Shown here in pieces: positions 3,787-18,074 of a stretch of 64,000 nt of DNA (positions are counted from its first letter, which is position 1; each line of letters opens with the position of its first letter). The position numbers and the translations under genes were made by a program. The notes beneath the pieces are model-generated. The model searched no databases. It saw only the letters and a program-made list of their open reading frames with translations, and had not been told where the DNA came from. Origin of the DNA: an uncultured Litoreibacter sp. (GTDB lineage Bacteria; Pseudomonadota; Alphaproteobacteria; Rhodobacterales; Rhodobacteraceae); assembly GCA_947492995.1 (NCBI GenBank), contig CANLOU010000003.1:124001-188000 (forward strand), given 5' to 3'.

Positions 3787-3793
3787 CCGGCGC

Positions 3794-3840
3794 CAAATTT
3801 TCGACGAAAATTTGTACCCAGAGTTTCGATGAAACTCTGG
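3794..3840. repeat. Pair of short perfect palindromes after pdxJ
   Basis: Two back-to-back inverted repeats lie 8 bp after the pdxJ stop. The first (3794-3814) has 10-bp arms CAAATTTTCG / CGAAAATTTG around one base. The second (3818-3840) has arms CCAGAGTTTC / GAAACTCTGG around GAT. The two start points are 24 bp apart and the sequences are unrelated, the same design as the array after tuf at 45530-45622. They could act as transcript ends, but there is no U run. Confidence 0.8.
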
Positions 3841-3853
3841 CATTGTCGCGCTC

Positions 3854-4168
3854 ATGATTCTGCATTCCGTCTACCTGCGCCTGCCCAAAGGCACCGACCG
3901 CACCGAGCTTGATGCCGTCATGTCGGGCCTCAAATCGCTATGCAAATCCTTGCCCGGCTGTGCTGGCTTCCAGCACGGCCCCAACCGCGATTTCGAGCAT
4001 AAATCACCTGACTACAGCTATGGGTTTGTTGCGCAATTTCGGGACCGGGACGCGCTTGCGACCTATTCAGACAATCCCGACCACCACGCGCTTGGCGGCC
4101 GGTTGGTGGCTATGTGTGAAGGTGGCGCTGACGGGATTATGGTCTACGACATCGAGGTTGCGCCTTAA
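3854..4168 (+). CDS. Dabb (stress-responsive A/B barrel) domain protein
   Basis: A 104-residue single-domain protein fitting the Dabb family: the opening MILHSVYLRLP, a central GFQHGPN and YGFVAQFRDRDALATYSDNPDHHAL, the typical helix-turn before a C-terminal strand. Dabb proteins are dimeric ferredoxin-like alpha/beta barrels. A few are cyclases or decarboxylases and many have no known role. It is the first gene after the palindrome pair downstream of pdxJ and the left edge of the accessory block. Whether it belongs to the catabolic genes that follow is unknown, because a 196-bp gap separates it from tctB. Confidence 0.75.
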   Translation: MILHSVYLRLPKGTDRTELDAVMSGLKSLCKSLPGCAGFQHGPNRDFEHKSPDYSYGFVAQFRDRDALATYSDNPDHHALGGRLVAMCEGGADGIMVYDIEVAP

Positions 4169-4204
4169 CGCAGACCACGCGGGATCCAGCGTGGCAATCA
4201 CATT

Positions 4205-4220
4205 ACTTGACATGTTAAGT
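4205..4220. promoter_or_regulatory. 16-bp near-palindrome, candidate operator/promoter of the tct genes
   Basis: ACTTGACATGTTAAGT is symmetric about its centre with one mismatch. It contains a TTGACA hexamer (4207-4212) that could be a -35 box, so a protein bound here would block the promoter. It sits 145 bp upstream of tctB, in the 196-bp gap after the Dabb gene. No clear -10 box is visible at the expected spacing, so the promoter part is tentative. Confidence 0.35.
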
Positions 4221-4364
4221 ATTTCTGACCAAGTTTGGGTGTGTGAATAAACCTCCCTGGGTCTGCTGTGTCGAAAACATGATCTATCTTGGCGATCTTC
4301 ATGCCCCCCATGGGGCCTCGCGCGGGCGTTGTGCTGCGGATGCCGGTGCTGCGCGGGCTGCCCC

Positions 4365-5099
4365 ATGACGGCTGCCCCCCAGACCAATGATGCCTTGTAC
4401 CTCTTTGACGAGGCCGCCCCAGCGGAGGGCGTAGCCACGTTCAAAAGCGAATGCCCCCCGGACAAAAAGGTGAAGGTCGAGGACCTGTTCAAATTTTCGC
4501 GGACCCGAGGCGATTTGCAGGTCTCCATCGTGGCCGCGCTGATCGCGCTGTTCTTTCTGGCGTTCTTCTGGACGCAGACGGGCTGGGACGCCCGCAAGCT
4601 GCCTGACGAGTTTGGCACCTACCTGGCCTACCAGTTCGGGCTGGCCGATATCGAGGGCCGGGTCACCCGGCTGGGGCGGATTTTCAAGCAATCCTGGGTC
4701 GCACCCATGCTGTGTCTGCTGGTCTTCGTGCCCGCTGCGCTGTGGAATTTGCGCGCGTCGTGGAAAGAAACGGCGTGGCGCCGGCGGTTCCTGCTGCCCA
4801 CCAGCGCGTCGTTTGAGCTGACCAAATACGCCGCCGCGCTGGAATATGTGGGCTATTTCATCGGCTACACCCTGATTGTGCCGGTGCTTGGCTATCTGGT
4901 GTCCACCTTGATCCTCGGCACGTTCCTGACATGGCGGCTGGGCTACCGCAGCCGCAGGTGGGTCCTGACGGGCGTGGCCTCCAGCTTTGCCGTGGTCATC
5001 GCGTTTCGCACCCTGTTGCAGATCAAGACGCCCGGCAGCATCTGGCTGTATGACCAGCTCCCCGCCGCCACGCGGGCCTTCATGCTGACGTATTTCTAG
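4365..5099 (+). CDS. tctB: Tripartite tricarboxylate transporter small membrane subunit (TctB-like)
   Basis: A 244-residue protein with a hydrophilic N-terminal segment of about 60 residues followed by four predicted membrane spans (VSIVAALIALFFLAFFW; APMLCLLVFVPAALW; YVGYFIGYTLIVPVLGYLVS; WVLTGVASSFAVVIAF). It is assigned to TctB mainly because it directly precedes tctA (12 bp gap). It is longer than the usual 150-170 residues of TctB and has a soluble loop between spans 1 and 2. The ATG at 4365 is preferred to an upstream Cys-rich extension starting at 4329, which looks non-coding. With TctA and TctC it would form a cation-coupled uptake system for a carboxylate. Confidence 0.75.
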   Translation: MTAAPQTNDALYLFDEAAPAEGVATFKSECPPDKKVKVEDLFKFSRTRGDLQVSIVAALIALFFLAFFWTQTGWDARKLPDEFGTYLAYQFGLADIEGRVTRLGRIFKQSWVAPMLCLLVFVPAALWNLRASWKETAWRRRFLLPTSASFELTKYAAALEYVGYFIGYTLIVPVLGYLVSTLILGTFLTWRLGYRSRRWVLTGVASSFAVVIAFRTLLQIKTPGSIWLYDQLPAATRAFMLTYF

Positions 5100-5111
5100 G
5101 GGGGCGCGCGG

Positions 5112-6608
5112 GTGGAGGCATTTCTGACAGGTCTGGACAGTCTGATGCAGCCCGCGGTTTTGGTGGCGATTGTCATCGGCTCCATTGGCGGGCTGATTAT
5201 CGGGGCGGTGCCGGGCATTGGCCCGGCTATTGCGATTGCCATCTTGTTGCCGGCGACGGTGTTTCTGGACGACCTTGTCAGCCTCGTGCTGCTGCTGGGG
5301 GTCTACGGGTCCTCCATGTATGGCGGCGCCATTCCGGCCATCTTGATTAACACGCCGGGCACACCGGTGAACGCGCTGACAACCTATGACGGCTACGCCA
5401 TGACGCGGCGGGGCGAGGCGTCGCGGGCGCTGTCGCTGGCTTATTCTGCCTCGTTCTTCGGGGGGTGTTTCTCGATCATCATGGCGCTGATTGCCCTGTT
5501 CGTCTTTGGCCCCTACCTGCGCGACCTCGGGGCGTTGTTTGGCCAACGCGACATCTTGATGGCGGCAATTTTGGGCGGGGTCCTGCTGATCGCGGCGCAT
5601 CGCCAGACCATGGGCATCGCGGCGCTGCTGTTTGGGTTCGGCTTCCTGATTGCCATGATCGGGCGGCAATCCACCCGCAGCATCGACCGCTACACGTTCG
5701 ACATCGAATACCTTTATGCGGGCTTCAACCTGATCGTCGTCATCGTTGGCATTTTCGCGTTGAGCCAGGCGCTGAACCTGATGGTCGGCAAGGATGACGA
5801 CCCGCCCGAGGCGCGGATCACCGGTGGCCTGCTCAGCGGGTTTCGCGAGATCGCGGGCCGCAAGATGATCTCGGTCCTGTCGGCGATATACGGCACCATC
5901 ATGGGGATCATCCCCGGGGTGGGCGAATTCGTAGCGCAGTTTTTCAGTTACTCGACGGCGCGGTCCTTGTCGAAGGAGCCCGCGCGGTTCGGCCATGGCT
6001 CGCATGAAGGGCTCATCGCGTCGGAGACCTCCAACAACGCGGTGCCCGCCGCCGCCATGATCCCGCTGCTGGCGCTGGGCGTGCCGGGGGAGGCGTTGAC
6101 GGCCATGATGATGGTCGTGTTCTTTGACGCAGGGATCAAGCCGGGGCCGGACATCTTCGAGAATAATCCCGACTTCCTGTTCAGCCTGTTCACGGCGCTG
6201 CTGATTATCAATGTGCTGGTGCTGGCCACGCTGCTGGTCTCGACCCGGTTCATTGCCAAGATGGTCTACATCCCCAACCGTTTTCTGGGGGCCTTCATCA
6301 TGATTTTGTCCTTTGTCGGCGTCTATTCGATCCGCAACAGCCTGACGGATTGCATCTTTGCGGTGATTTTTGGCTTTATCGGCTTCGTGCTGCGCCGCCT
6401 TGACTGGCCGCTGGTGCCGATTGTGTTGGGGCTTGTGCTGGGCTCCATCATTGTGGAGCGTCTGACGGCGGGGGCCGGCCAGATCAAATCTGCCGTGGAC
6501 CTCATCAACCGACCCGTCTCGGGAACCTTATTCGTGGTGATCCTTGTGGTCATAGGATTCATCATTTGGACGTCACTTAAAAACAGACGCACGGACTATC
6601 AAACATGA
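5112..6608 (+). CDS. tctA: Tripartite tricarboxylate transporter large permease (TctA)
   Basis: A 498-residue inner-membrane protein with about 12 hydrophobic spans. It carries the two TctA hallmark regions: IIGAVPGIGPAIAIAILLP near residue 32-50 with YGGAIPAILINTPGTP just after, and the repeat-related GIIPGVGEFVAQFFSY / SNNAVPAAAMIPLLALGVPG in the second half. TctA is the translocating subunit of TTT transporters. The GTG start at 5112 follows a GGGGGCG stretch. The substrate cannot be read from the sequence. The flanking enzymes suggest a carboxylated nitrogen compound. Confidence 0.95.
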   Translation: MEAFLTGLDSLMQPAVLVAIVIGSIGGLIIGAVPGIGPAIAIAILLPATVFLDDLVSLVLLLGVYGSSMYGGAIPAILINTPGTPVNALTTYDGYAMTRRGEASRALSLAYSASFFGGCFSIIMALIALFVFGPYLRDLGALFGQRDILMAAILGGVLLIAAHRQTMGIAALLFGFGFLIAMIGRQSTRSIDRYTFDIEYLYAGFNLIVVIVGIFALSQALNLMVGKDDDPPEARITGGLLSGFREIAGRKMISVLSAIYGTIMGIIPGVGEFVAQFFSYSTARSLSKEPARFGHGSHEGLIASETSNNAVPAAAMIPLLALGVPGEALTAMMMVVFFDAGIKPGPDIFENNPDFLFSLFTALLIINVLVLATLLVSTRFIAKMVYIPNRFLGAFIMILSFVGVYSIRNSLTDCIFAVIFGFIGFVLRRLDWPLVPIVLGLVLGSIIVERLTAGAGQIKSAVDLINRPVSGTLFVVILVVIGFIIWTSLKNRRTDYQT

Positions 6609-6630
6609 CCAAAACCAACGGGAGAAGAAA

Positions 6631-7572
6631 ATGAAGAAATTTGCATTGTCAGCCGCGCTTGCGGCCAGCACCATCCTTGCGGGCGCATTGCCTGCGGCGG
6701 CCGACTATCCAACCGCGCCAGTCCAGTTCATTGTGCCGTTCCCTCCGGGCGACTTTGAAGACATCACTACCCGGATGATTGCAGCCAAGCTGCAGGAAGT
6801 CAGCGGCGTCTCGGCCTCGGTTGTGAACCGCCCCGGCGGCGGTGACGGCCCGTTCCCGGGCGCGCTTGAGGTGCTGAACGGCCCGACGGACGGCTCCGTC
6901 ATCGGGTCCTTTGTGATTGGTGTGCCGGTTGTAGGGCCGCAGATCGACATCGGCATTGAGGAAGACAGCTTCACGCCCATCGGCGTCTATCTGACCTATC
7001 CTTTCATTCTGGCAGCCGCTGGTGACGCGCCCTATTCAAACATGGCAGAGCTGGCCGCACATGCGCAGGACAATGACGTTGTTCTGGGCCATTTCGGGGC
7101 CGGGCTTGCGCCAACCAAAGCGACCTTCGCGGGCGCGGCGTTGATGGATTTCGAATTTGCAGACGATGCGGCGTTTGACCTGCTGGATTGCAACTCGCTG
7201 TCCTCGGGCGATGCGGATGTCATCAACACCACGCTGGCGCTGATCGAGCCTTGCTTGGACGATGTCAAAGTGCTCGCCAATATCGGGTCAGAGCGCATCG
7301 GCAAGCTGCCAGATGTTGCAACATTGTCTGAACAGTCGGGCGTTTCCGAGCTGGAACTGTGGAACGGCTTGTTCGTCAAGAAGGGCACCCCACAGGAAGT
7401 GATCGACGTGATCGCGGATGTCGCGCAGCAGGTTGTAAACAGCGAAGAAGGCCAGCAGTTGATGGCTGAAACCGGCGCGCGCCTCTATTGGGAAGGGACC
7501 GCAGAGGCCAACGCCCGGATCGAAGCCGATCGCGCAAACATTGCCGAGATGAACAAGATCATCGGCAACTAG
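6631..7572 (+). CDS. tctC: Tripartite tricarboxylate transporter substrate-binding protein (TctC / Bug family)
   Basis: A 313-residue periplasmic receptor with a Sec signal peptide (MKKFALSAALAASTILAG, predicted cut after AAA at 24) and the Bug-family opening YPTAPVQFIVPFPPG. The ligand loops differ from the family norm: PPGDFEDITTR replaces the usual PAGGGTD pattern, and NRPGGGDGPFPGALEV replaces the usual Gly-rich NRPGAGG. This suggests a less common ligand. The start has a good ribosome site (GGGAGAAG). The order tctB-tctA-tctC differs from the more common tctC-B-A. A strong hairpin follows the gene. Confidence 0.92.
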   Translation: MKKFALSAALAASTILAGALPAAADYPTAPVQFIVPFPPGDFEDITTRMIAAKLQEVSGVSASVVNRPGGGDGPFPGALEVLNGPTDGSVIGSFVIGVPVVGPQIDIGIEEDSFTPIGVYLTYPFILAAAGDAPYSNMAELAAHAQDNDVVLGHFGAGLAPTKATFAGAALMDFEFADDAAFDLLDCNSLSSGDADVINTTLALIEPCLDDVKVLANIGSERIGKLPDVATLSEQSGVSELELWNGLFVKKGTPQEVIDVIADVAQQVVNSEEGQQLMAETGARLYWEGTAEANARIEADRANIAEMNKIIGN

Positions 7573-7582
7573 CACTGCTTAA

Positions 7583-7607
7583 AGGTGGCCACGTTTAGTG
7601 GCCACCT
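7583..7607 (+). terminator. Perfect 10-bp hairpin after tctC
   Basis: AGGTGGCCAC and GTGGCCACCT pair perfectly around the loop GTTTA, starting 10 bp after the tctC stop. No T run follows, so it may protect the tct mRNA or partly end transcription before the enzyme genes, which begin 21 bp later. Confidence 0.55.
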
Positions 7608-7628
7608 CCACTCAATTGGAACACGTTC

Positions 7629-8360
7629 ATGCGCCGCATCAAACTCGGTATCCTCCAAACCAATCACGACAAATCGGTCGATGTCGGGGACGCGTTTCCA
7701 GACGACGCGCACCGGTTTCGGGACATGTTCGACGCGCAGGACGACCGGTTCCAATACAAAATCTACATGACCATCGGCGGCGAGGTGCCGCAGGATCTGG
7801 ACGAACAAGACGCCTTTCTCATCACCGGTAGTCCGCTCAGCGTGCTGGACCAGCATATATTCAGTGACGGGCTCAGCGACTTCATCCGCCGGTGTGACGC
7901 GGCCAAAAAGCCGCTAATGGGCGCGTGCTTTGGTCATCAAGCCATCGCGCTGGCCTTGGGCGGCAAAGTCGAGAAATCCCCAGATGGCTACAACGTTGGG
8001 ATCGAAGACACGGTCTATTGCGCCAAACGCCCGTGGATGGTGCCGGACCGCGACCGGCTGCCGATGTACATGTTTCACGAGGACGCGGTGACCGCATTGC
8101 CCGAAGGCTGCGCGTTGCTCGGGTCCTCCGCACGGTGCAAAAACGCCAGCTTCGCCAAGGGCGACCACATTTTCACGACGCAGGCCCATCCCGAATTCAC
8201 CAGTGAATTCATGTCCTGCGTGCTGCGGTTTTCTGAAAGCGCGATCCCTGAGCCGGGGCGAAAGCCCGCTTGGGACAGCCTTGAGAAAGCACAGGAAGGC
8301 CATGTCTTTGGCCTCTGGACCACAGAATTCTTCAAAAGGGCGCTTTCGCATGCGGGATGA
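7629..8360 (+). CDS. Class I glutamine amidotransferase-like hydrolase
   Basis: A 243-residue stand-alone GATase1 domain. The nucleophile elbow is GACFGHQ with Cys100, and the catalytic His187 and Glu189 lie in AHPEF, so the triad is complete. Stand-alone enzymes of this type next to a glutamine synthetase-like gene include PuuD and AtdA2 (aniline degradation). Known or proposed roles of such pairs are hydrolysis of a gamma-glutamyl amide or supply of ammonia. The P450 start overlaps its last codons and a GS-like ligase follows, so the three are almost surely one transcript. I infer a gamma-glutamyl hydrolase role. GMP synthase-type transfer is unlikely as no partner domain is present. Confidence 0.82.
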   Translation: MRRIKLGILQTNHDKSVDVGDAFPDDAHRFRDMFDAQDDRFQYKIYMTIGGEVPQDLDEQDAFLITGSPLSVLDQHIFSDGLSDFIRRCDAAKKPLMGACFGHQAIALALGGKVEKSPDGYNVGIEDTVYCAKRPWMVPDRDRLPMYMFHEDAVTALPEGCALLGSSARCKNASFAKGDHIFTTQAHPEFTSEFMSCVLRFSESAIPEPGRKPAWDSLEKAQEGHVFGLWTTEFFKRALSHAG

Positions 8361-9585
8361 CGGACATCTGAGCCTCTTGAGCCATGACAGCTTCGCCAAC
8401 GGCGTGCCGCATAAAACCTTCGCGCGCTTGCGCCGCGAGGACCCTCTGTCATGGACCGATGGCGACGCGGAAACCAAGGGCTTTTGGAACCTCACCCGCC
8501 ACGCCGACATCGCGCTGGCCAACCGCGAAGGGCCGGTGTTCAGCTCGGCCCAGGGCATCCGGCTCGAAGACCAAAGCCACGACGAATACATGGCCCGGCG
8601 CACCTTTCAGGAAACCGACGCGCCCGACCACACCGCCACGCGGCGGGTCGTGAACCCCAGCTTTGCCAAGCCCGTCATGGCCCGGTTTGAGGGGCTTATC
8701 CGCGAGCTGGCCAGCGACATTGCCGACACAGCGCTGCAGCAGACCGAATTCGACGCGGTCGACGCGATGGCCAAGCAGTTGCCGATGATGATGCTGGGCC
8801 GCATCCTCGGGGTGCCGGACGAGGATCTGGGCTGGCTCGTCGAAAAGGGTGATGCGCTGATTGGCAACTCGGACCCCGACTTCACCGACCACGTGGTCGA
8901 CAAGATGGACACCAGCGCCTACCGGCTGATGCCGTTCCGCAGCCCGGCGGGGGTCGAACTCTACGACTACGCCGCCGACCTACTGGAGAACCGCCGCGCC
9001 GTGGCCGAGGAAGGCATCCTCGCCAAAATGATGCGCGACGAGAACGGGCTGAAGGAGCTGGAGTTCAAAAACTTCTTCTGCCTGCTAGTCGCCGCCGGCA
9101 ACGACACGACCCGCTATTCCATTGCCATGGCGCTCAATCTTCTGGCCCATGACCCCGCCCTGATCGAACAGCTGCGCGGTGGCGCCTATTGGGACACTTG
9201 CGCAGATGAATTTATCCGGTTGGCCTCCCCCACCATGCATTTCCGCCGCACGCTGACGCAGGACTATACGCTGCACGGCAAGACCATGAAGGAAGGCGAC
9301 AAGGCGCTGCTATGGTTCGTCTCCGGCAGTCGCGACGAGGCTGTTTTTGACGACCCGCATGCCTGCCAGCTGGGGCGCAGCCCAAACCGTCATCTGGCCT
9401 TTGGGCAGGGTGGCATTCACGTCTGTCTGGGCATGCATCTGGCCAAGCTGGAGGTGCGCATCGCCATCGAAGAGCTGGTCAAACGCATTGACCGCTTCGA
9501 GGCGGTGGAGCCGCCCACCTGGACCCGGTCCAACTTCATCTGCGGCGTCAAGAAATTGCACGTCCGCGCCACAAGGGCCGCCTGA
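8350..9585 (+). CDS. Cytochrome P450 (CYP125/142-like heme motif)
   Basis: A soluble 411-residue bacterial P450. The I-helix oxygen-activation motif AGNDTTR is at 249-255, the K-helix ExxR is E287-R290, and the heme thiolate is Cys359 in FGQGGIHVCLG. That loop has one residue more than the common FGxGxHxC and follows the F-x-x-x-G-x-H-x-C form known from CYP124/125/142. SPTMHFRRT after the K helix also resembles those families. The start at 8350 (MRDDGHLSLL) overlaps the amidotransferase gene by 11 bp; an in-frame ATG at 8203 lies far inside that gene and is rejected. No ferredoxin or reductase gene is in the cluster, so redox partners must be elsewhere. Confidence 0.92.
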   Translation: MRDDGHLSLLSHDSFANGVPHKTFARLRREDPLSWTDGDAETKGFWNLTRHADIALANREGPVFSSAQGIRLEDQSHDEYMARRTFQETDAPDHTATRRVVNPSFAKPVMARFEGLIRELASDIADTALQQTEFDAVDAMAKQLPMMMLGRILGVPDEDLGWLVEKGDALIGNSDPDFTDHVVDKMDTSAYRLMPFRSPAGVELYDYAADLLENRRAVAEEGILAKMMRDENGLKELEFKNFFCLLVAAGNDTTRYSIAMALNLLAHDPALIEQLRGGAYWDTCADEFIRLASPTMHFRRTLTQDYTLHGKTMKEGDKALLWFVSGSRDEAVFDDPHACQLGRSPNRHLAFGQGGIHVCLGMHLAKLEVRIAIEELVKRIDRFEAVEPPTWTRSNFICGVKKLHVRATRAA

Positions 9586-9588
9586 CAC

Positions 9589-10863
9589 ATGACCAAGATC
9601 ACCCGCACTCGCGCGCTTTTCAATGACATGCTGAACCTGCCGCGCGGCAAATATGTGCCCCCGGATGTGGCCGCGGGCGGCGCCATCGGGTTCGCGCGCG
9701 GGGCGTTCGCCGTCTCCTATGACCGCGATCTGGTGACGGTGCCGGGCTGCGAATTCTTCAACGGCGTGCCGGATATGGAGCTGGTGCTGGACGCAGAGCG
9801 CCGCAAAGGCTGGCAAGCAGGTACCGAGATCGCGCTGGGCGATCTTTACGCAGATGACACGCCCTTCGGCCTCTGCCCGCGCGGGGCGGTGAAGCGGGCG
9901 GTAAAAGACTGGGAAGATCTCGGCTACACGCCAATGATTGGCCTAGAGACAGAGGCCTTCATTTTCCAACGCGACGAAGACGGGATTTGGCGCCCCTATG
10001 ACACCCCCGGTGCCTTCGTTTACAGCACCGGCCCCGAAAGCGATCCCAAAGGTGTCATGGACGACATCTGGGAGGCGGCACATGCCGCCGACATCCCCAT
10101 CGAAAGCATGAACGGGGAATTCGACAATGGCCAGTTCGAGCTGACAATGCGGTTCGACAATGCCGTCAAAGCCTGTGACGACGCCTTCCTGATGCGCACC
10201 ATGGCGCGTGAAATCGGGCTGAAGAAGGGCCTGCTGCTGACCTTCCTGCCCAAGCCGGTGCCGGATCGCGGCGGGTCCGGCCTGCACGTGAATTTCAGCT
10301 TCAATGATGCCAACGGGACCAATGCAATCGCCCCCGATGGCCAGCTCTCTGAGGTCGCAAGGCATTGCGTCGCGGGGCTGGTCCACCATCACCCGGCCTT
10401 GGCGGGCCTGCTGGCCACGACCGTCAACAGCTATGACCGTCTCAACCCCGGCGGGCTGGCGGGGTATTGGGCAAACTGGGCCGAGGATCACCGGCTGGTC
10501 ACCACGCGGACCTCGACCAAGTCGCGGAAATCCGCGCGGCTGGAACACCGGATGGCCGATTGCGCGACCAATCCCTATCAAGCTGTGGCAAGCGTGCTGC
10601 AGGCGGCGCGGCTGGGCTACGTCAACAAGCGGCCACTGCAACCTGCCGAGGACCTCGACGGCTGGGAAAACGTGCGCGAAAAGCGGCATGTGCCCTCCGG
10701 TCTGGACAAGTCGCTGAATGCGCTCGACCAAGACGCCGAGTTGCGCAAGGCGATTGGCGCGCTGTATTGCGACGCCCTGCTGTATCTCAAACGCGACGAA
10801 TTTAAGCGGCTGCTGGGCAAAAGCGTGGACGAGGTGCGCGACTTTTATCTGCCCTTCATCTGA
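9589..10863 (+). CDS. Glutamine synthetase-like gamma-glutamyl-amine ligase
   Basis: A 424-residue member of the glutamine synthetase superfamily. Recognisable elements are IGLETEAFIF (first metal Glu), NGEFDNGQFEL (metal and ATP site), GGSGLHVNFSF (equivalent of GSGMHxH), and ARLEHRMADCATNPYQA (equivalent of the RxExRxxDxxANPY region). Housekeeping GlnA residues are only partly kept, as in PuuA, AtdA1 and similar ligases that join glutamate to an amine other than ammonia. It starts 3 bp after the P450 stop. Pairing with the amidotransferase two genes upstream suggests an attach-then-remove gamma-glutamyl cycle. The amine is unknown. Confidence 0.85.
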   Translation: MTKITRTRALFNDMLNLPRGKYVPPDVAAGGAIGFARGAFAVSYDRDLVTVPGCEFFNGVPDMELVLDAERRKGWQAGTEIALGDLYADDTPFGLCPRGAVKRAVKDWEDLGYTPMIGLETEAFIFQRDEDGIWRPYDTPGAFVYSTGPESDPKGVMDDIWEAAHAADIPIESMNGEFDNGQFELTMRFDNAVKACDDAFLMRTMAREIGLKKGLLLTFLPKPVPDRGGSGLHVNFSFNDANGTNAIAPDGQLSEVARHCVAGLVHHHPALAGLLATTVNSYDRLNPGGLAGYWANWAEDHRLVTTRTSTKSRKSARLEHRMADCATNPYQAVASVLQAARLGYVNKRPLQPAEDLDGWENVREKRHVPSGLDKSLNALDQDAELRKAIGALYCDALLYLKRDEFKRLLGKSVDEVRDFYLPFI

Positions 10864-10876
10864 AATCTCAAAATAC

Positions 10877-10898
10877 TTTACTACACGGTTTAGTTAAA
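10877..10898. promoter_or_regulatory. Imperfect inverted repeat before the nicX-like gene, candidate TetR operator
   Basis: TTTACTA and TAGTTAAA form facing half-sites around CACGGTT in the 61-bp gap between the GS-like gene and the nicX-like gene. One arm has an extra base. Size and symmetry suit a TetR-family operator, and a TetR domain is encoded at the end of this same transcription unit. The AT-rich stretch is the only likely promoter between the two gene groups. Confidence 0.35.
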
Positions 10899-10924
10899 GC
10901 ATCCTCCCCAAAAGGGAGTCGCCA

Positions 10925-11971
10925 ATGCTACAAGAAATCCCCGAAGGCAAATGGGTCGCCAGCTTTCGCCGTGTCCTGAAACTCAACGGGATCGGCAAAG
11001 GAACAGCCGTCGCCGTCGTTGCCGAAAGCCAGTCGCGGCCTGTGTTGGTGCAGCTTTGCGCCTTGGCGCTCTATGATCTGGGGGCCGCGTTCTCGACCAT
11101 CACGCTGCCCACACCGGAACAGACCGCGCTCGTGCCGGTCAAATCCACCGGTGCGTCCAATGCCATCTCGGGCAAGCGCCACGTGATCGAAGCGCTCAAA
11201 CAGGTCGAGGTGGTGGTGGACGTCACAGTCGAGGGCCTGCTGCATGCCGCCGAATGGCCCGAGATCGAGGACGCCGGCACAAGATTGTTCGTGATCTGCA
11301 ATGAACACCCCGAAATTCTGGAACGCACCGAACCGCAAGCCGCCCTTGGGCCAAAGGTCGCGCTTGGTATCGAGATGCTGCGCGATGCCGCCGAAATGCG
11401 GGTGACAAGTGCCGCTGGCACGGATCTGACCATCGACATCAAAGACGCGCCTTGCGGCGGCACGCCGGGATTTACGACCTCCAAAGGCGGGGTTGCGCAT
11501 TGGCCGGGCGGGCTGTGTCTGTGCTTCCCCGGCCCAAACACCATCAACGGCAAAATCGTCATGGCGCCGGGCGACATGAACCTGACCTTCAAAAGCTACC
11601 TGACCTCCGAGATCGGGTTTCAGATCGAAGACGACTTCGTCAAATCCATCACAGGCGACAGCCTCGATGCGGACCTGTTCCGCGAATACCTGGCCGCTTG
11701 GGACGACCCCATCGCCTATGGGCTGAGCCATGTTGGCTGGGGCATGAACCCGCGCGCGCGTTGGGAGAGCATGGCGCTCTATGACAAGCGTGACGTGCAG
11801 GCGACTGAGTTCCGCGCATGGTCCGGCAATTTCTTGTGGTCCACCGGCTCTAACCAATATGCAGGGCGTTTCACATTAGGCCATTTCGACCTGCCAATGC
11901 GCGGCTGCACCATTTCACTTGATGGCACAGCGGTCGTTGTGGACGGCGTTTTGCAAGGAGACCTCGCATGA
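10925..11971 (+). CDS. NicX-like 2,5-dihydroxypyridine 5,6-dioxygenase family protein (M29-like fold)
   Basis: A 348-residue protein that aligns over its length with Pseudomonas NicX as I recall it, notably AHWPGGLCLCFPGP, DPIAYGLSHVGWGMNPRARW, and GNFLWSTGSNQ. The NicX iron ligands are His265, Ser302, His318 and Asp320. The matching residues here are His269, Ser306, His320 and Asp322, with identical spacing between the first pair and a 2-residue shorter loop before the HxD. NicX opens the pyridine ring of 2,5-dihydroxypyridine to N-formylmaleamate. Relatives are often misnamed leucyl aminopeptidase. A good ribosome site (AAGGGAG) precedes the ATG. Its stop overlaps the next start (ATGA). The exact substrate is not fixed by sequence. 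Confidence 0.8.
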   Translation: MLQEIPEGKWVASFRRVLKLNGIGKGTAVAVVAESQSRPVLVQLCALALYDLGAAFSTITLPTPEQTALVPVKSTGASNAISGKRHVIEALKQVEVVVDVTVEGLLHAAEWPEIEDAGTRLFVICNEHPEILERTEPQAALGPKVALGIEMLRDAAEMRVTSAAGTDLTIDIKDAPCGGTPGFTTSKGGVAHWPGGLCLCFPGPNTINGKIVMAPGDMNLTFKSYLTSEIGFQIEDDFVKSITGDSLDADLFREYLAAWDDPIAYGLSHVGWGMNPRARWESMALYDKRDVQATEFRAWSGNFLWSTGSNQYAGRFTLGHFDLPMRGCTISLDGTAVVVDGVLQGDLA

Positions 11972-13254
11972 CCGATTTTCGTGAATATTACGATGTGTCA
12001 AAGTTCCGCCCCCAGCATCTGGAGATGCTGGACAGGATCAACGCGCTCGGCCCGAAATTTGCCGAACGTGCCGCTAAGCACGACAAGGAAGCCAGCTTTC
12101 CAACCGAAAATTACAACGAGCTGCGCGACGGCGGTTTCCTGAAACTCGTCATCCCCGAAGCGTTCGGCGGCATGGGGTTCAGTCTTGGCGAATACGCAAC
12201 CATCGGTGCCGAAATCGGCAAGTATTGCGGGGCAACAGCGTTGACCTTCAACATGCACACGTCCTCCATGATGTGGCTGCGGTTCATGTATGAGATGCCG
12301 AACCTGACCGACGCCGAACGCGCCGCGTTCAAGCGGATGCGGGAGCTGCAATTCCCCAAAGTGGTCAACGAGGGCGCGATCTTTTCGCAGCCCATCTCGG
12401 AAGGCGGGGTCAACTGGACGTCGGAGCCGATCAAAACCAACTGCCGCAAGGTCGATGGCGGCTGGGTCATCAACGGGTTCAAGAAATTCGCCTCGCTCGC
12501 GGGCCATTGCGACTACTACTCCATCGTCTGCACCGAGCATTTCGAAGGCAAGGACCCCGCCCACGAGGACACCATGGACTTCGCGGTCCACAAAGACGCC
12601 AAGGGCCTGTCCATCACCGGCGACTGGGACCCGATCGGGATGCGCGGCACGGTCAGCCGCGACCTGATCCTGAAGGACGTCTTCGTCAACGAGGATGACA
12701 TGATGATGCCCGCCGGCGTCTTCGGCAAAACGCTGTCGCAATGGCCGCATATGATGGCCACGCTGACGCCCGCCTATATGGGCGTCGCGCAGGCGGCCTA
12801 TGATTTCACGGTGCGCTACCTGCGCGGCGAAACCCCCGGCCAGCCCCCGATTGACCGCCGGGTCTACCCCACCAAACGCGCCGCCGTGGGCCGCATGTTC
12901 CAGCGCCTGACCGAGATGCGCACCCTGTGGACCACCGCGTTCTTCGAGGCGCGGGGCTTTCCGACACAGGCCGAGGTGATGCGCGTCTACGCGGCGCAAT
13001 ACGCGGTGATGGAGGGCGTGCAGGAACTGGCGGCGCTGGCCATCCGCACCTGCGGCGGGCAGTCGATGCTGAAATCCCTGCCGCTCGAACGGATCTACCG
13101 CGACAGCCGCTGCGGGGCGCTGATGCTGCCCTACACCACTGAAATCATGGAGGATTACCTGTCGATGATGACCGTCTATGACATGGACACAATCGACGAG
13201 GTCAACACCGATACCGTGTCGGCACGTGTGTCGATGTGGCGGCCCGCGGGCTAG
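11968..13254 (+). CDS. Acyl-CoA dehydrogenase-like flavoprotein without the usual catalytic Glu
   Basis: A 428-residue protein with the acyl-CoA dehydrogenase fold: an N-terminal helical domain with FGGMGFSLGEYA, a middle beta domain (ISEGGVNWTS, WVINGFKKFAS, DPIGMRGTVSRD), and a C-terminal helical domain ending in RTCGGQSMLKSLPLERIYRDSR. After YRD, canonical enzymes read ...IYEGT with the base Glu. Here the region reads CGALMLPYTTEI, placing Leu where Glu is expected. The enzyme may therefore be a flavin monooxygenase or oxidase of this fold, or use a displaced acid. It overlaps the nicX-like gene by 4 bp and is followed after 4 bp by the hydrolase/TetR fusion. Confidence 0.83.
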   Translation: MTDFREYYDVSKFRPQHLEMLDRINALGPKFAERAAKHDKEASFPTENYNELRDGGFLKLVIPEAFGGMGFSLGEYATIGAEIGKYCGATALTFNMHTSSMMWLRFMYEMPNLTDAERAAFKRMRELQFPKVVNEGAIFSQPISEGGVNWTSEPIKTNCRKVDGGWVINGFKKFASLAGHCDYYSIVCTEHFEGKDPAHEDTMDFAVHKDAKGLSITGDWDPIGMRGTVSRDLILKDVFVNEDDMMMPAGVFGKTLSQWPHMMATLTPAYMGVAQAAYDFTVRYLRGETPGQPPIDRRVYPTKRAAVGRMFQRLTEMRTLWTTAFFEARGFPTQAEVMRVYAAQYAVMEGVQELAALAIRTCGGQSMLKSLPLERIYRDSRCGALMLPYTTEIMEDYLSMMTVYDMDTIDEVNTDTVSARVSMWRPAG

Positions 13255-13258
13255 GCCA

Positions 13259-15256
13259 ATGCCCGCCGAACAGGTTCAATGCTCCCGCAAACTTGACGCC
13301 GCCCCAGACGATGTCTGGGCGGTGCTGCGCGGTTTTGACATTGGCTGGCACCCGATGGTGGCGTCTTGCACGCTGTTGCGTGGCCGGGCCGGGGCGGTGA
13401 CCCGCGCCTTCACAACAACCGATGGCGGGCAGATGGTGGAGCAGCGCAGCTACCTCAGCGACACCGACCGGGTGCTGCGCTACACCGCCCTTTCCGGCAT
13501 CGAGGGCGCGTTCGGCTATGCCGCGTCGGTCGAGGTGACCGGAAAGAACGGCACGTCCACCGTCACGTGGCAGGCCAACATCACTGCGCGCGCCGATCGT
13601 GTTGCGCAAATTGCCGACGGCACCCGCGCGGTGTTTGAGGCCGGGCTTGACCAACTGGGCCACGACCTGCCGCCCGCGCCGCCCTCCAAGCAGGCCAAAC
13701 GCCGCCCAACCGCCACCAAGCGCATGACTTTTGGCACGCCACGCCTCTCTTTACTCACAACCTCTGCGGATCACGCGGCCAGTGATACATTGGTGTTGTT
13801 CCTGCACGGCATCGGCGGGCAGGCCACAAACTGGGCCGACCAGATCGCGGCATTCGGGGCGGGCTACCGCGTGGCTGCGATGGATTTGCGCGGCTATGGC
13901 GACAGCGCGCGCGGGCCCACGCAGACGCAGGTTAGTGACTACTGCGCCGACATCTTGGCGGCTGCCAAACAGGTCGGGACCAAACGGGTGGTGCTGGTGG
14001 GCCTCAGCATGGGCAGCTGGATCGCAACCAGCTTTGCGATGCGCCACGGCGATATGCTGGCGGGGCTGGTTCTTGCGGGCGGCTGCACCGGCATGTCGGA
14101 GGCCGACCCGCAGGAGCGGGACGCCTTCCGCGCCGCGCGCGAATTGCCCCTGTCGCAGGGCCAAAGCCCTGCCGATTTCGCCGCGTCAGTCGTCGACATC
14201 ATTGCCGGCCCGCAGGCCAGCAAAGCCCAGCACGACATCCTCCATGCCTCAATGGCCGCCATCCCGTCCGACACCTACCGCGACGCGCTCACCTGCTTTT
14301 GCAATCCGCCGGAAACTTTCGACTTTGCCAAAATCAGCTGCCCCGTCTTGATGGTCACAGGGGAACATGACCGCCTTGCGCCACCCGCTGAAATCAGGGC
14401 GGTCAGCAGGCGCATCTTCTCTGACCTCGCGGCGACAGGCGGCCACCCCGACATCCGGTTCGAGGTGCTGGCGGGGGCCGGTCATCTGTGCAATCTCGAA
14501 CAGCCCGCAGCGTTCAATGACGTGTTGGCGCAGTTCCTGGAACGCCTGCCTCACGTCGGCTCCGCCTTTAAGCCAACCCGCGCGGAAAAGCAGCACGAGA
14601 AACGCGCGCGTATCCTGCAGGCGGCCCATGCAGAATTCTGCGAGGCCGGATTTGATGGGGCTTCCATGGATCGGCTGGCAAAGGCTGCGGATGTGTCCAA
14701 GCCGACGCTCTATCAGTATTTTGGTGATAAGGACGGCTTGTTCGCCGCCGTGCTGGAAGAGGGGCGCGCCCATATCATCGCGCCGCTTGTGGGCGGGGAT
14801 GGCACGCTTGTGGACAGGCTTTGGCGGTTTAGCTGGACCTATGCGCGGTTTGTGTTGCGACCAGATATGCTGTCGCTGGCCCGGTTGATTTTGGGGGAGG
14901 CGGGGCGCAGGCCCCAAAGTGCCGTTCAATATCATCAAAGCGGTCCTGCCCGTGCTTTTGACGGGCTGGTTGAGTTTGTCTCGGCCGCCGATGCCGCTGG
15001 CGAGCTGGACATTGATGACCCGAAACGCGCCGCCAACGACCTTTGGTCGCTGATCCTGTCAGGGCCACGCGATCACTACCTGCACCACGTCGCGGATCGC
15101 CCGACAGAGGCAGAGTTGCTCGCAGCCATCGGGCATGGCTTGGGTGTTTTCCTCAAAGCCTATTCGCGCAACCCGTCTGAGGACCGGCAGGCCCTGTCTG
15201 ACAAAATGCACGCGGCGCAATCGCGGCTGGATCGCGCCCCCAAAGACGCGGGCTGA
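13259..15256 (+). CDS. SRPBCC - alpha/beta hydrolase - TetR regulator triple fusion
   Basis: A 665-residue protein with three unrelated parts in one continuous frame. Residues 1-135 look like an SRPBCC ligand-binding domain (CSRKLDAAPDDVWAVLRGF at the start). Residues 155-432 are an alpha/beta hydrolase with HGIGG, Ser250 in GLSMGS, Asp371 in TGEHD and His409 in GAGHL, so the triad is complete. From about 440 a TetR-type domain begins, with the helix-turn-helix DRLAKAADVSKPTLYQYFGDKDGLF. NicD, which acts after NicX, is also an alpha/beta hydrolase, so the middle domain may deformylate the ring-opened product. It might instead be a sensor. The ATG at 13259 follows the previous stop by 4 bp; a frame-open extension back to 13178 lies inside the upstream gene. 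Confidence 0.85.
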   Translation: MPAEQVQCSRKLDAAPDDVWAVLRGFDIGWHPMVASCTLLRGRAGAVTRAFTTTDGGQMVEQRSYLSDTDRVLRYTALSGIEGAFGYAASVEVTGKNGTSTVTWQANITARADRVAQIADGTRAVFEAGLDQLGHDLPPAPPSKQAKRRPTATKRMTFGTPRLSLLTTSADHAASDTLVLFLHGIGGQATNWADQIAAFGAGYRVAAMDLRGYGDSARGPTQTQVSDYCADILAAAKQVGTKRVVLVGLSMGSWIATSFAMRHGDMLAGLVLAGGCTGMSEADPQERDAFRAARELPLSQGQSPADFAASVVDIIAGPQASKAQHDILHASMAAIPSDTYRDALTCFCNPPETFDFAKISCPVLMVTGEHDRLAPPAEIRAVSRRIFSDLAATGGHPDIRFEVLAGAGHLCNLEQPAAFNDVLAQFLERLPHVGSAFKPTRAEKQHEKRARILQAAHAEFCEAGFDGASMDRLAKAADVSKPTLYQYFGDKDGLFAAVLEEGRAHIIAPLVGGDGTLVDRLWRFSWTYARFVLRPDMLSLARLILGEAGRRPQSAVQYHQSGPARAFDGLVEFVSAADAAGELDIDDPKRAANDLWSLILSGPRDHYLHHVADRPTEAELLAAIGHGLGVFLKAYSRNPSEDRQALSDKMHAAQSRLDRAPKDAG

Positions 15257-15345
15257 CGCGCCTGCTTTGCTCCCCCCCGCGCTTGCGCCACCTGATGGCC
15301 CGTGACACTCTCTCCGCAGTTTCAAATCCGCCGGAGGAACGCATC

Positions 15346-15969
15346 ATGACCGGATACGAACTCGTCCTTTTGTGGGTCGCGTGGATACTGGGCGGTGGCA
15401 GCCCGGGGCCTGCAACCCTTGGCATCGCCAGCACCTCGATGAACACGGGGCGGCGGATGGGGCTGATGTTTTCGCTGGGTATCCTCTTTGGCAGCGCGTT
15501 CTGGGGTGTCGCGGCGGCTTTGGGCATGAGCGCGGTGATGATGACCAATGCATGGGTGTTCGAAACCATGCGCTATGTCGGCGCGGCCTATCTGCTGTAT
15601 CTTGCGCTGAAATCGCTGCGCTCCGCCCTGTCGGACAAAAATGCGCTGATGGGCAAGGCCCAAAGCGGCTCGGCTGCGCGGGTCTTCACCAAAGGCGCGC
15701 TTATTCATCTGACCAATCCCAAGGCGATCCTCGGCTGGGGGGCCATCTATGCGATTGCGCTGCCCGCCACGGCCTCTGTGGGTGATCTGTTCTGGATGTT
15801 CGGGTTTCTCTATTCCGGCTCTATTTTGGTCTTCATCGGCTATGCCTTCCTGTTTTCGTCGGCGGGGGTCGTGCATGTGTACCAGCGGATGCGCCGCTGG
15901 TTCGAATTCACCTTCGCGCTGCTGTTCGGGGCGGCCAGCCTCAAGATATTGACCGCAAAAGCGCTTTGA
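15346..15969 (+). CDS. LysE family exporter
   Basis: A 207-residue inner-membrane protein with about six hydrophobic spans and the LysE-family N-terminal signature WILGGGSPGPATLGIASTSMNTGRRMG, followed by VGAAYLLYLALKSLRSA and HLTNPKAILGWGAIYA. LysE/RhtB proteins export amino acids and related small molecules. The ATG at 15346 has a strong GGAGGA site 9 bp upstream; earlier in-frame starts lack one. It ends the accessory block before acpS, 89 bp after the fusion gene, and could relieve build-up of a pathway intermediate, but that link is inference only. Confidence 0.88.
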   Translation: MTGYELVLLWVAWILGGGSPGPATLGIASTSMNTGRRMGLMFSLGILFGSAFWGVAAALGMSAVMMTNAWVFETMRYVGAAYLLYLALKSLRSALSDKNALMGKAQSGSAARVFTKGALIHLTNPKAILGWGAIYAIALPATASVGDLFWMFGFLYSGSILVFIGYAFLFSSAGVVHVYQRMRRWFEFTFALLFGAASLKILTAKAL

Positions 15970-15990
15970 CGGGGGCCGCCGCGCATGCGC

Positions 15991-16027
15991 ATGAAATACA
16001 TATGAAATACACATCAAATACACATTT
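15991..16027. repeat. Three 11-bp tandem units upstream of acpS
   Basis: ATGAAATACAT, ATGAAATACAC and ATCAAATACAC follow each other without gaps and end in ATTT. The block starts 55 bp before the acpS ATG and ends 18 bp before it. One unit per helical turn would place each site on the same face of the DNA. An almost identical block occurs at 56802-56838 ahead of nusG, with a single changed base across the units. Eleven is not a multiple of three, so this is not repeated coding sequence. Confidence 0.85.
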
Positions 16028-16045
16028 GCCGTTTGGGGGCGCAAA

Positions 16046-16521: not shown

Positions 16522-17331
16522 ATGGCGCGCAGTGACGACAAAGAAGACGGCATCACCGAAACCGTGAAAACGGTTGTTTACGCGCTGCTCATCGCCGCCG
16601 TTTTCCGCAGTTTCTTCTTCCAGCCCTTCTACATCCCCACCGGCTCCATGAAGGACACTTTGCTGGTCGGCGACTTCATGTTCGTCAACAAGATGGCCTA
16701 CGGATATTCCAAATATTCCTGCCCCTTCGGCATCTGCCCCATCCCTGATCGCATTCTGGCGCGTGACCCCAACCGCGGCGACGTGGTGGTGTTCCGCCAC
16801 CCGACCTCCGGTCAAGACTACATTAAACGCCTTGTCGGCCTGCCCGGTGACACTGTGCAAATGAAGCAGGGCGTGTTGTTTTTAAACGGAAAAGAGCAGG
16901 TGCAAACGCCAGACGGGCAGTTTGTTGAAGAGAACGCACCGCAAGGATCAGTCGGCGGCTACCCGCGCTGCGGCAACGGCGCGACCGGCCTTGGCGCCGA
17001 TTGCATCAAGCCACGTGCGCAAGAGGCTTTGGATGGGTATGGCAACCACAGTGTCCTCAACATTGTTGACCTGCCAGTTCCTGCGCAGGGGCAGCTGAAC
17101 GCCGACAACACGCCGGTGTATACGGTGCCCGAGGGGCATTTCTTCTTCATGGGTGACAACCGCGATAACTCTCTGGATTCGCGGTTCTCGCAGACCGCGA
17201 ATGGGGTCGGCATGGTGCCGTTCCAGAATCTCCTTGGCCGCGCGGATCGGGTGATCTTTTCCTCCGCGGGCAGCCGGATGCTGTTCTTCTGGACATGGCG
17301 TGGCGACCGGTTCTTCAAGGCAATCCAGTAA
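16522..17331 (+). CDS. lepB: Signal peptidase I
   Basis: A 269-residue type I signal peptidase that removes signal peptides on the outer face of the inner membrane. One N-terminal membrane span (TVVYALLIAAVFRSFFF) is followed by the nucleophile Ser42 in PTGSMKDTLLVGD and the general-base Lys102 in YIKRLVGLPGD. The later box [12 protein letters not shown] is also present. It begins 71 bp after acpS with AAGGATAAG as ribosome site. A second, related peptidase gene starts 2 bp after its stop. Confidence 0.96.
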   Translation: MARSDDKEDGITETVKTVVYALLIAAVFRSFFFQPFYIPTGSMKDTLLVGDFMFVNKMAYGYSKYSCPFGICPIPDRILARDPNRGDVVVFRHPTSGQDYIKRLVGLPGDTVQMKQGVLFLNGKEQVQTPDGQFVEENAPQGSVGGYPRCGNGATGLGADCIKPRAQEALDGYGNHSVLNIVDLPVPAQGQLNADNTPVYTVPEGHFFFMGDNRDNSLDSRFSQTANGVGMVPFQNLLGRADRVIFSSAGSRMLFFWTWRGDRFFKAIQ

Positions 17332-17333
17332 CG

Positions 17334-18074
17334 ATGCGCCCCGCGCGCCGCAGTGAAGTTGCACTTCTTGCGGTGCTTGCGCCATTCTCTTTTGCGATCA
17401 TCCTGACGCTGGTGCTGTTCCGCGCCTATTGGATCCCGTCAGGGTCAATGAAGCCAACGCTGTTAATCGGGGATTACCTTTTGGTTAACAGGGCCGCTTA
17501 CGGCTTTCCCGCCCTCATGTGTGGCTTGGGTCAATGCGACGGGGACATGGGGCCATTAGGCGGCCAGCCCGAGCGCGGTGACGTGGTCACCTTCATTCAT
17601 CCCGTGGTCGGGCATCACTACATCAAGCGCATCATTGGCTTGCCCGGTGACAAGGTGCAGATGAAATCTGGACAGCTGCTGCTGAACGGCCAGCCCCTCA
17701 AAGCAGAGCCGCTTGCCGATTTTGCGGAAGCCTATCATCTGGAGGATGGCTACATCGCCTGCAACAACGCTCCGGTCGATGTCGGGGGCGAATGTCTTAA
17801 GGCGCAGGCCCGTGAAGTCTTGCCCGATGGGCGCAATTACCTCACGCTGAACATTGCAGACGGGATGCGCGCGGATGACACGAAACTGTTCGAAGTTCCG
17901 CCCGGTTCGGTGTTTGTGGTCGGTGACAACCGAGATAACTCTTTAGATTCAAGGTTCCCCGCGGGGAACCACGGTATGGGGTTCGTTCCCCTGGAGAACA
18001 TGGTGGGCCGCGCAGACGTCATTTTGTTCTCGTTGAAAGGTGCCGATGGGAGGGTGCTGCGATGGGTGGAATAA
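17334..18074 (+). CDS. Second signal peptidase I paralogue
   Basis: A 246-residue protein with the same layout as the gene just upstream: one membrane span ([19 protein letters not shown]), catalytic Ser38 in [13 protein letters not shown], Lys98 in [11 protein letters not shown] and [12 protein letters not shown]. All catalytic boxes are intact, so it is probably active. It has diverged between the boxes, with a Cys-containing loop ([14 protein letters not shown]) and another Cys pair near 145-160 that could make disulfides in the periplasm. The two genes are a tandem duplication 2 bp apart. Its 3' end overlaps rnc by 13 bp. Confidence 0.92.

Follow-up and report, generated by a model that had tools for sequence, protein, structure and literature searches.

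A window of 64,000 nucleotides from an uncultured Litoreibacter sp. (contig CANLOU010000003.1, positions 124,001 to 188,000) carries an operon in which a glutamine synthetase (GS)-like ligase, a cytochrome P450 and a relative of NicX, the 2,5-dihydroxypyridine (2,5-DHP) dioxygenase, lie together behind a tripartite tricarboxylate transporter (TTT). The operon is real and its core is conserved. The combination is undescribed as far as our literature search shows: an earlier note on this DNA, made from its letters alone, knew of no pathway joining a GS-like ligase and NicX, and we found no such paper either. Homarine degradation, considered owing to the roseobacter context, was set aside without a gene-by-gene comparison. 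The reading that we favour, with a probability of about 0.45, is of a horizontally mobile catabolic operon for an aromatic alkylamine (one of the class of tyramine, dopamine and phenethylamine, or an amino acid whose decarboxylation would yield it) that would proceed through gamma-glutamyl conjugates. Its parts, their intact motifs, their conservation and their linkage are read from sequence, and the catalytic steps are deduced from these. The ring-opening step is best read as the work of a NicX subfamily whose specificity would have changed.

All the genes of the run are on the plus strand with intergenic gaps of -11 to +61 bp from the first transporter gene to the last enzyme gene, and they form two joined modules: one of a class I glutamine amidotransferase-like protein (GATase1), the P450 and the GS-like ligase, the other of the NicX-like protein, a flavoprotein, an SRPBCC-hydrolase and a TetR regulator. 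Our scans locate within 7629-15256 all six of the enzymes that the earlier note had placed there. Its gene set stands as to members, while the actual order is GATase1, P450, GS-like, NicX-like, flavoprotein and hydrolase, with the P450 ahead of the ligase. The TTT transporter that it saw upstream is there too, as a TctB-like small membrane subunit (4365..5099; Pfam TctB E 1.5e-6, its 28.9 bits being just under the cut-off of 29.1), the large permease subunit TctA (5112..6608, start codon GTG; Pfam E 3.4e-117) and the periplasmic binding protein TctC (6631..7572; Pfam E 3.2e-11). The TctB copies in loci L071, L072, L074 and L078 are 78-83% identical.

The NicX-like protein (10925..11971) is a predicted Fe(II) dioxygenase. 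NicX of Pseudomonas putida (PDB 7cn3) was its only PDB sequence match up to E = 10, with an E value of 1.5e-52, and NicX superposes on its AlphaFold2 model (mean local confidence, pLDDT, 88.9) with a template-modelling (TM) score of 0.91 at 2.3 Å in Foldseek. A scan of a genome collection confirmed 330 relatives, and the best 80 of these loci, together with four proteins from plasmid records and that of the window, make up a set of 85 orthologues. The earlier note had credited the protein with complete iron ligands; all four (H269, S306, H320 and D322, corresponding to H265, S302, H318 and D320 of NicX) are kept in 85/85, as are the equivalents of NicX His105 and of its substrate-contacting His189 (H107 and H192) and of Arg293. 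The two proteins are alike in fold, length, iron ligands and these three further residues. They differ in overall sequence, at about 33% identity, in the pocket and in their surroundings, no nic pathway partner having been seen in the run. The column of NicX Leu104 has Ile in 69 orthologues, Leu in 15 and Val in one, that of Glu308 has Tyr in 84 (Y312 in the window) and Phe in one, and Glu177 is replaced by Thr (T180) in every orthologue. In the NicX study (PMC7910607), Glu177 hydrogen-bonds N1 and O1 of 2,5-DHP, an E177A mutant retains 2.7% activity, and the enzyme is described as having no reported activity on other substrates. We checked two more distant members of the family (34-36% identity): one has Glu at both the 177 and the 308 columns, while in its companion these columns hold Gln and Glu respectively and the Ser ligand is absent in this alignment. 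The window protein and its orthologues have a NicX-type iron site with an altered pocket; they probably share the mechanism of NicX and are probably not 2,5-DHP dioxygenases.

A sister clade of ten matches at 43-49% identity, eight of which were taken as long loci (L048-L055), places the same enzymes in other company. Three members that we checked have Val or Ile at the Glu177 column and Phe at that of Glu308. None of the eight loci gave a GS match with GS1, the ligase of the window, as query, GS2 (the second ligase type, below) not having been used as a query there. In six of them (L050-L055) a gene reaches E 1e-60 or better against coenzyme A (CoA)-ligase families, with scores below most of the cut-offs; L048 has an open reading frame (ORF) that is CoA-ligase-like by eye and falls below that threshold, and none was seen in L049. 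L055 additionally carries subunits of the molybdenum hydroxylase type. Thus the NicX-like protein, the hydrolase and the flavoprotein recur with a different conjugating enzyme. Because the sister clade pairs the same enzymes with a CoA ligase, one may propose a new conjugate-then-cleave route in which a NicX subfamily, spread horizontally in alpha- and gammaproteobacteria and with its hydrolase fused to its own TetR, cleaves a non-pyridine aromatic ring only when the substrate bears a handle that can later be removed: here a gamma-glutamyl group on an amine, in the sister clade CoA on an acid. We regard this wider proposal as tentative and, on balance, rather unlikely.

GS1 (9589..10863; Pfam Gln-synt_C 237.6 bits) and GS2 are distinct ligases with about 22-25% identity. 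In alignments to GlnA of the same genome, the flap Glu (E327) is Leu or Met in 8/8 GS1 rows and Phe in 14/14 GS2 rows, and the D50 column has Ser or His in 8/8 GS1 rows. The hallmark of the GS-like organic amide synthetases (GoaS), a GS fold lacking both E327 and D50, is seen in full in the window GS1 and by half in GS2. The amine ligase NpaA1 is likewise described as being without D50 and the flap Glu, the latter numbered 357 (PMC11335346). Since both of the residues lost in NpaA1 are replaced in GS1, GS1 looks like an amine ligase; the same assignment is less certain for GS2. GS1 scores 192 bits against a cut-off of 650 bits for gamma-glutamylputrescine synthetase. The GATase1 (7629..8360; Pfam GATase 59 bits), which has Cys100 in a GACFGH motif and an AHPEF motif, is a probable gamma-glutamyl hydrolase; the same source describes AtdA2-type GAT-like proteins as hydrolysing surplus gamma-glutamyl product (PMC11335346).

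The earlier note's flavoprotein (11968..13254; Pfam scan, residue alignment and Foldseek) is more exactly one with the acyl-CoA dehydrogenase (ACAD) fold. Pro388 occupies the column that we take to be the site of the ACAD catalytic Glu in 20/20 aligned sequences, the window's included, in a comparison of that column and not of the alternative Glu position of isovaleryl-CoA dehydrogenase. Foldseek places highest 5z8t and 5gj7, whose titles are flavin-containing monooxygenase and putative acyl-CoA dehydrogenase; nitrososynthases and TdsC come lower in the list and true ACADs score close behind. A literature search on the identity of these two structures yielded nothing relevant. The protein is probably the oxygenase of a two-component flavin monooxygenase, a role made more plausible because a RutF/HpaC-like flavin reductase gene recurs beside the module (48 of 66 long loci, with NCBIfam scores under the cut-offs). 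A flavin reductase homologue is found elsewhere in the window's own genome. The P450 (8350..9585, 411 aa, its start set by comparison with L078) has an FGQGGIHVCLG heme motif, AGNDTT and ExxR, with 69 bits to Pfam p450 for the longer ORF. Its best NCBIfam matches, SolI, Cyp119 and TxtE, are all far below cut-off. A biosynthetic cluster was considered as well, and the importers and catabolic neighbours argue against it.

The alpha/beta hydrolase that the earlier note had listed is present as the middle domain of a 665-aa SRPBCC-hydrolase-TetR (AefR-like) triple fusion (13259..15256; Pfam Polyketide_cyc2, Abhydrolase, TetR_N and TetR_C_7), whose start was likewise set from relatives. This joining of a pathway hydrolase to a TetR regulator, an enzyme-regulator fusion, occurs in 19/78 assessable loci; the SRPBCC-hydrolase is accompanied by a separate TetR in 57/78.

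Of 394 genomes of the family, 47 have a match to the NicX-like protein, with an identity of at least 69% in 24, and the 80 kept loci span Rhodobacteraceae, Rhizobiaceae, gammaproteobacteria and SAR116. Because copies in gammaproteobacterial bins (which can be misassigned) are closer to the window's, at 80% identity, than are many rhodobacteral copies (70-73%), the distribution points to horizontal transfer. The one gammaproteobacterial isolate, Leucothrix, has a NicX-like gene at 76% without the module. Neighbours were counted in the 66 loci that are 17 kb or longer, the window included, by tblastn at E 1e-6, with a floor of 40% identity for the ligases, reductases, permease, dioxygenase, FAA hydrolase, nitrilase, TctC, P450, decarboxylase and HpaD. 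The flavoprotein, SRPBCC and hydrolase have matches in 65/66 each and TetR in 63/66. GS2 is present in 51/66 and GS1 in 6/66, and one or the other lies near the NicX-like gene in 55/66; the search for co-occurrence that the earlier note had proposed thus bears out its joining of a GS-like ligase with NicX. It does not bear out the P450 as a general member of the set: this enzyme is a neighbour in 6/66 and is a local partner of the NicX-like module. The joined module order of the window is also found in L072 and in L071, the locus of Thalassobium sp. R2A62. Further neighbours are an APC-family (amino acid/amine) permease (37/66), a gentisate-type dioxygenase (24/66, under NCBIfam cut-offs), an FAA hydrolase (24/66), a second flavin reductase (23/66), a nitrilase (14/66) and TctC (9/66). 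Homoprotocatechuate, gentisate-like and salicylyl-CoA pathway genes all lie near NicX-like genes, the last as a salicylyl-CoA 5-hydroxylase/reductase cluster in four loci (L038, L085, L088 and L102, two of them alike in layout, with the L038 protein above cut-off), and molybdenum hydroxylase-type genes adjoin at least two of the modules, those of L112 and L055.

Plasmids provide two examples. Ensifer adhaerens W2-B9 plasmid p1 has a seven-gene run of NicX-like protein, flavoprotein, hydrolase, TetR, GS, flavin reductase and APC permease, bordered at one end by an IS3 transposase and at the opposite end by VapBC together with an IS30 transposase; a literature search on the selecting substrate of this strain found nothing relevant. 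In Aminobacter pAA02, the gene for tyramine oxidase subunit B and that for the NicX-like protein are separated by about 6 kb. Two separate observations concern other loci. L076, L081, L103 and L107, none of which has a GS match, carry N-methylglutamate-synthase-like sets (GlmS-like, FwdC-like and GltB-like) near the module, a third mgs-like gene being clustered in 3/4 of them; the copies scanned were those of L035, the same module as L081. At L034 4701-5975, an ORF beside the module resembles, by eye, a flavin amine oxidase whose parts are rearranged, a seemingly C-terminal block preceding its FAD motif.

The module of GS1, P450 and GATase also occurs with no NicX-like match nearby. It is found in L181 with HpaH/G/D/E/F, a decarboxylase and TctCAB, in L182-L184 with TctABC and UPF0261, and in L177-L179 with a decarboxylase, an HpaI-like aldolase and a ferredoxin; in L178 it adjoins hmgA and fumarylacetoacetase, both above NCBIfam cut-offs, and in Ruegeria TM1040 it adjoins paaABCD, TctCBA, an aldehyde dehydrogenase and a UPF0261/Tm-1-like gene. 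Because the homoprotocatechuate, homogentisate and phenylacetate pathways beside GS1 all concern arylacetates, this distribution suggests that GS1-P450-GATase is an arylethylamine feeding unit. The UPF0261/Tm-1-like protein itself is found repeatedly next to TctABC, aldehyde dehydrogenase and GS1 units (L172 13576-14820 in the window's own genome; L164 in Ruegeria TM1040).

A decarboxylase accompanies these genes. Among solved structures it is closest to DOPA, aromatic-L-amino-acid and tyrosine decarboxylases (7xin, E 1.6e-104), and its solved relatives include a tryptophan decarboxylase. In the same genome as the window, a DOPA-decarboxylase-like gene is embedded in a homoprotocatechuate operon on contig C5 (L172 7108-13032), in the order HpaF-E-D-decarboxylase-G-H, with HpaD and HpaH above cut-off; the genome also has an HpaB-family gene. 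Relatives of the decarboxylase at E 1e-60 are present in 187 of the 394 family genomes. At that threshold, and in tests that ignore shared ancestry, the GS1-type ligase occurs with it in 67/72 genomes (34 expected, p 1.5e-19) and the NicX-like protein in 22/24 (11.4 expected, p 3.5e-6), while the NicX-like protein occurs with the GS1-type ligase in 16/24 (4.4 expected, p 7.6e-8; 10/18 against 3.3 expected, p 3e-4, when the six closest genomes are removed) and with the gentisate-type dioxygenase in 9/24 (1.7 expected, p 7.9e-6). By eye, GS1 and the decarboxylase are about 15 kb or less apart in 13 genomes.

It is because of the DOPA-decarboxylase-like partner, the GS-like ligases, the frequent APC permease, the arylacetate pathways and the tyramine oxidase subunit of Aminobacter that we favour an aromatic alkylamine as substrate. 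In the pathway that we envisage, TctABC would import the compound or its amino-acid form and the GS-like ligase would couple glutamate to the amine. The P450 would then oxidise the conjugate, in the simplest case at the carbon adjoining the amide nitrogen, with the release of an aryl-acetaldehyde that could enter an arylacetate ring pathway such as that encoded by the homoprotocatechuate genes of contig C5. The ACAD-fold flavoprotein would hydroxylate the aromatic ring, with its flavin reductase coming from elsewhere, the NicX-like Fe(II) enzyme would cleave the hydroxylated ring and the fused hydrolase would split the ring-opened product. The GATase-like protein may clear excess gamma-glutamyl amide, a role that AtdA2 has in the degradation of aniline, and the fused TetR domain may sense a pathway intermediate.

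Several observations weigh against an aromatic alkylamine operon of this kind. The co-occurrence statistics take no account of ancestry, and the decarboxylase and HpaD are each near the NicX-like gene in 3/66 long loci, making the link mostly a genome-wide one. In NCBIfam the decarboxylase (L032 copy) has weak matches, the best being to 2,4-diaminobutyrate decarboxylase, far under cut-off. The P450 is rare among the long loci, and 11/66 (L075, L076, L079, L081, L090, L099, L100, L103, L104, L107 and L110) have no GS1 or GS2 match. GS2 retains Asp in the D50 column in 14/14 rows while the following GSS of GlnA is gone, and given the kept Asp it is uncertain whether GS2 has lost the use of ammonium. 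Tblastn of the window's locus found no match to the recurrent flavin reductase beside the flavoprotein. The gentisate-type dioxygenase, nitrilase and salicylyl-CoA neighbours suit an ortho-substituted benzoate better than an arylacetate, and the first and last of these would also suit an indole product; the few molybdenum-hydroxylase neighbours suit an N-heterocycle; and a TTT importer would suit a carboxylate better than a free amine. Moreover, if HpaD cleaves homoprotocatechuate, the presence of a second ring-cleaving enzyme needs a reason.

An alternative is that two pathways were merely joined in the operon of this lineage: GATase-P450-GS1 would deaminate arylethylamines and so supply arylacetate pathways, while the NicX-like module, with its own GS2 elsewhere, would degrade another compound. 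The occurrence of the GS1 unit apart from NicX in Ruegeria TM1040, L177-L179 and L181-L184 fits such an arrangement, as does the preponderance of GS2 over GS1 at NicX-like loci, but the operon in the window is tight, its joined order is shared with L071 and L072, and the co-occurrence of NicX-like and GS1-type proteins at the genome level survives removal of the closest genomes; we consider a mere juxtaposition unlikely. A doubtful reading makes the substrate an indole-type amine, tryptamine: the flavoprotein would oxygenate the indole, the NicX-like enzyme would open the C2-C3 bond and leave an N-formyl group, the hydrolase would remove formate as NicD does, and the remaining ring would be processed by anthranilate- or salicylate-type enzymes. 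This would account for the module's neighbours, a dioxygenase of the gentisate/5-aminosalicylate type and an FAA hydrolase, for the salicylyl-CoA clusters, for indole-bound TdsC at rank 22 among the flavoprotein fold matches and for the tryptophan decarboxylase among the solved relatives of the decarboxylase. Against it, the window's own genome has no gentisate dioxygenase match and no salicylyl-CoA hydroxylase above cut-off, and we know of no use of the GS1-linked arylacetate lower pathways (HpaD, hmgA and paa) for indoles.

The earlier note had pictured an imported carboxylate bearing an amine or a pyridine ring, and a pyridine carboxylate or amino-pyridine brought in by TctABC and opened in a true NicX-type step would fit the NicX fold, the iron ligands and the molybdenum hydroxylase-type genes of L112 and L055. 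We think such a substrate improbable given the universal replacement of Glu177 by Thr, the benzenoid nature of the lower pathways nearby, and the Pfam and NCBIfam scans of the run's proteins, which were not extended to the rest of the genome and in which neither a maleamate amidase nor a maleate isomerase type was seen. In Azospirillum, Asp/Glu racemase and isochorismatase-family genes, which we take to be those for maleate isomerase and maleamate amidase, adjoin an annotated 2,5-DHP dioxygenase. Least credible of all is an M29-type peptidase role for the NicX-like protein, in which it would strip the glutamyl group and not act as an oxygenase: plasmid records do annotate it as peptidase M29 and Foldseek also retrieves PepS and AmpT, but the M29 peptidases fit the model more weakly than NicX (TM 0.57-0.62, a comparison of fold and not of the M29 ligands) and the NicX iron site is fully conserved.

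The proposed alkylamine pathway has partial counterparts in known systems. It shares with aniline and 1-naphthylamine degradation (AtdA, TdnQ and NpaA1-A5) a GS-like amine ligase and a GAT-like hydrolase ahead of an oxygenase; there the oxygenase is a Rieske dioxygenase, whereas here a P450, a probable two-component flavin monooxygenase and NicX-like cleavage are combined, and the Pfam and NCBIfam scans found no Rieske protein among the proteins of the run. Modules of the HsaABCD/HpaBC type combine an ACAD-fold oxygenase and its flavin reductase with a ring-cleaving dioxygenase and an alpha/beta hydrolase, a logic that the proposed pathway would share; here a NicX-like enzyme replaces the extradiol dioxygenase, gamma-glutamyl conjugation is added and the hydrolase is fused to SRPBCC and TetR. 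The polyamine pathway of the PuuA/PuuD type also has a pair of GS-like ligase and GATase-like hydrolase. The pair is alike in the window, but is accompanied by oxygenases of the aromatic type, and GS1 is far under the cut-off for gamma-glutamylputrescine synthetase.

The operon is inside about 12 kb between pdxJ and acpS that is missing from the panel's one genome of the same genus (G171), where acpS follows pdxJ after about 440 bp and is itself followed by lepB. The upstream flank has spoT/relA, DUF2062, pdxJ and a Dabb gene, and the downstream flank has acpS, two tandem lepB-type genes and rnc. The pdxJ-acpS gap (window 3787-16045) is a variable insertion site in the family, being even shorter in G075 and G045 than in G171. 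Two genes of the gap were dropped as pathway members because the same gap holds them without the island in other genomes, LysE (15283-15969) in G123 and the Dabb ORF (3854-4168) in G145; the NicX-like genes of these two genomes are located elsewhere, and LysE has a match among the 85 loci in the window and L074 (34%) only. The two signal peptidase I genes that precede rnc (16522-18074) overlap.

If the proposed alkylamine route is correct, it would add a second substrate class for NicX and would explain the clustering of genes that are annotated as 'peptidase M29', 'glutamine synthetase family' and 'acyl-CoA dehydrogenase family'. The seven-gene run of Ensifer offers a ready minimal set for expression tests. 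The operon and its relatives would then represent a gene-level route by which roseobacters and rhizobia turn over naturally occurring aromatic amines.

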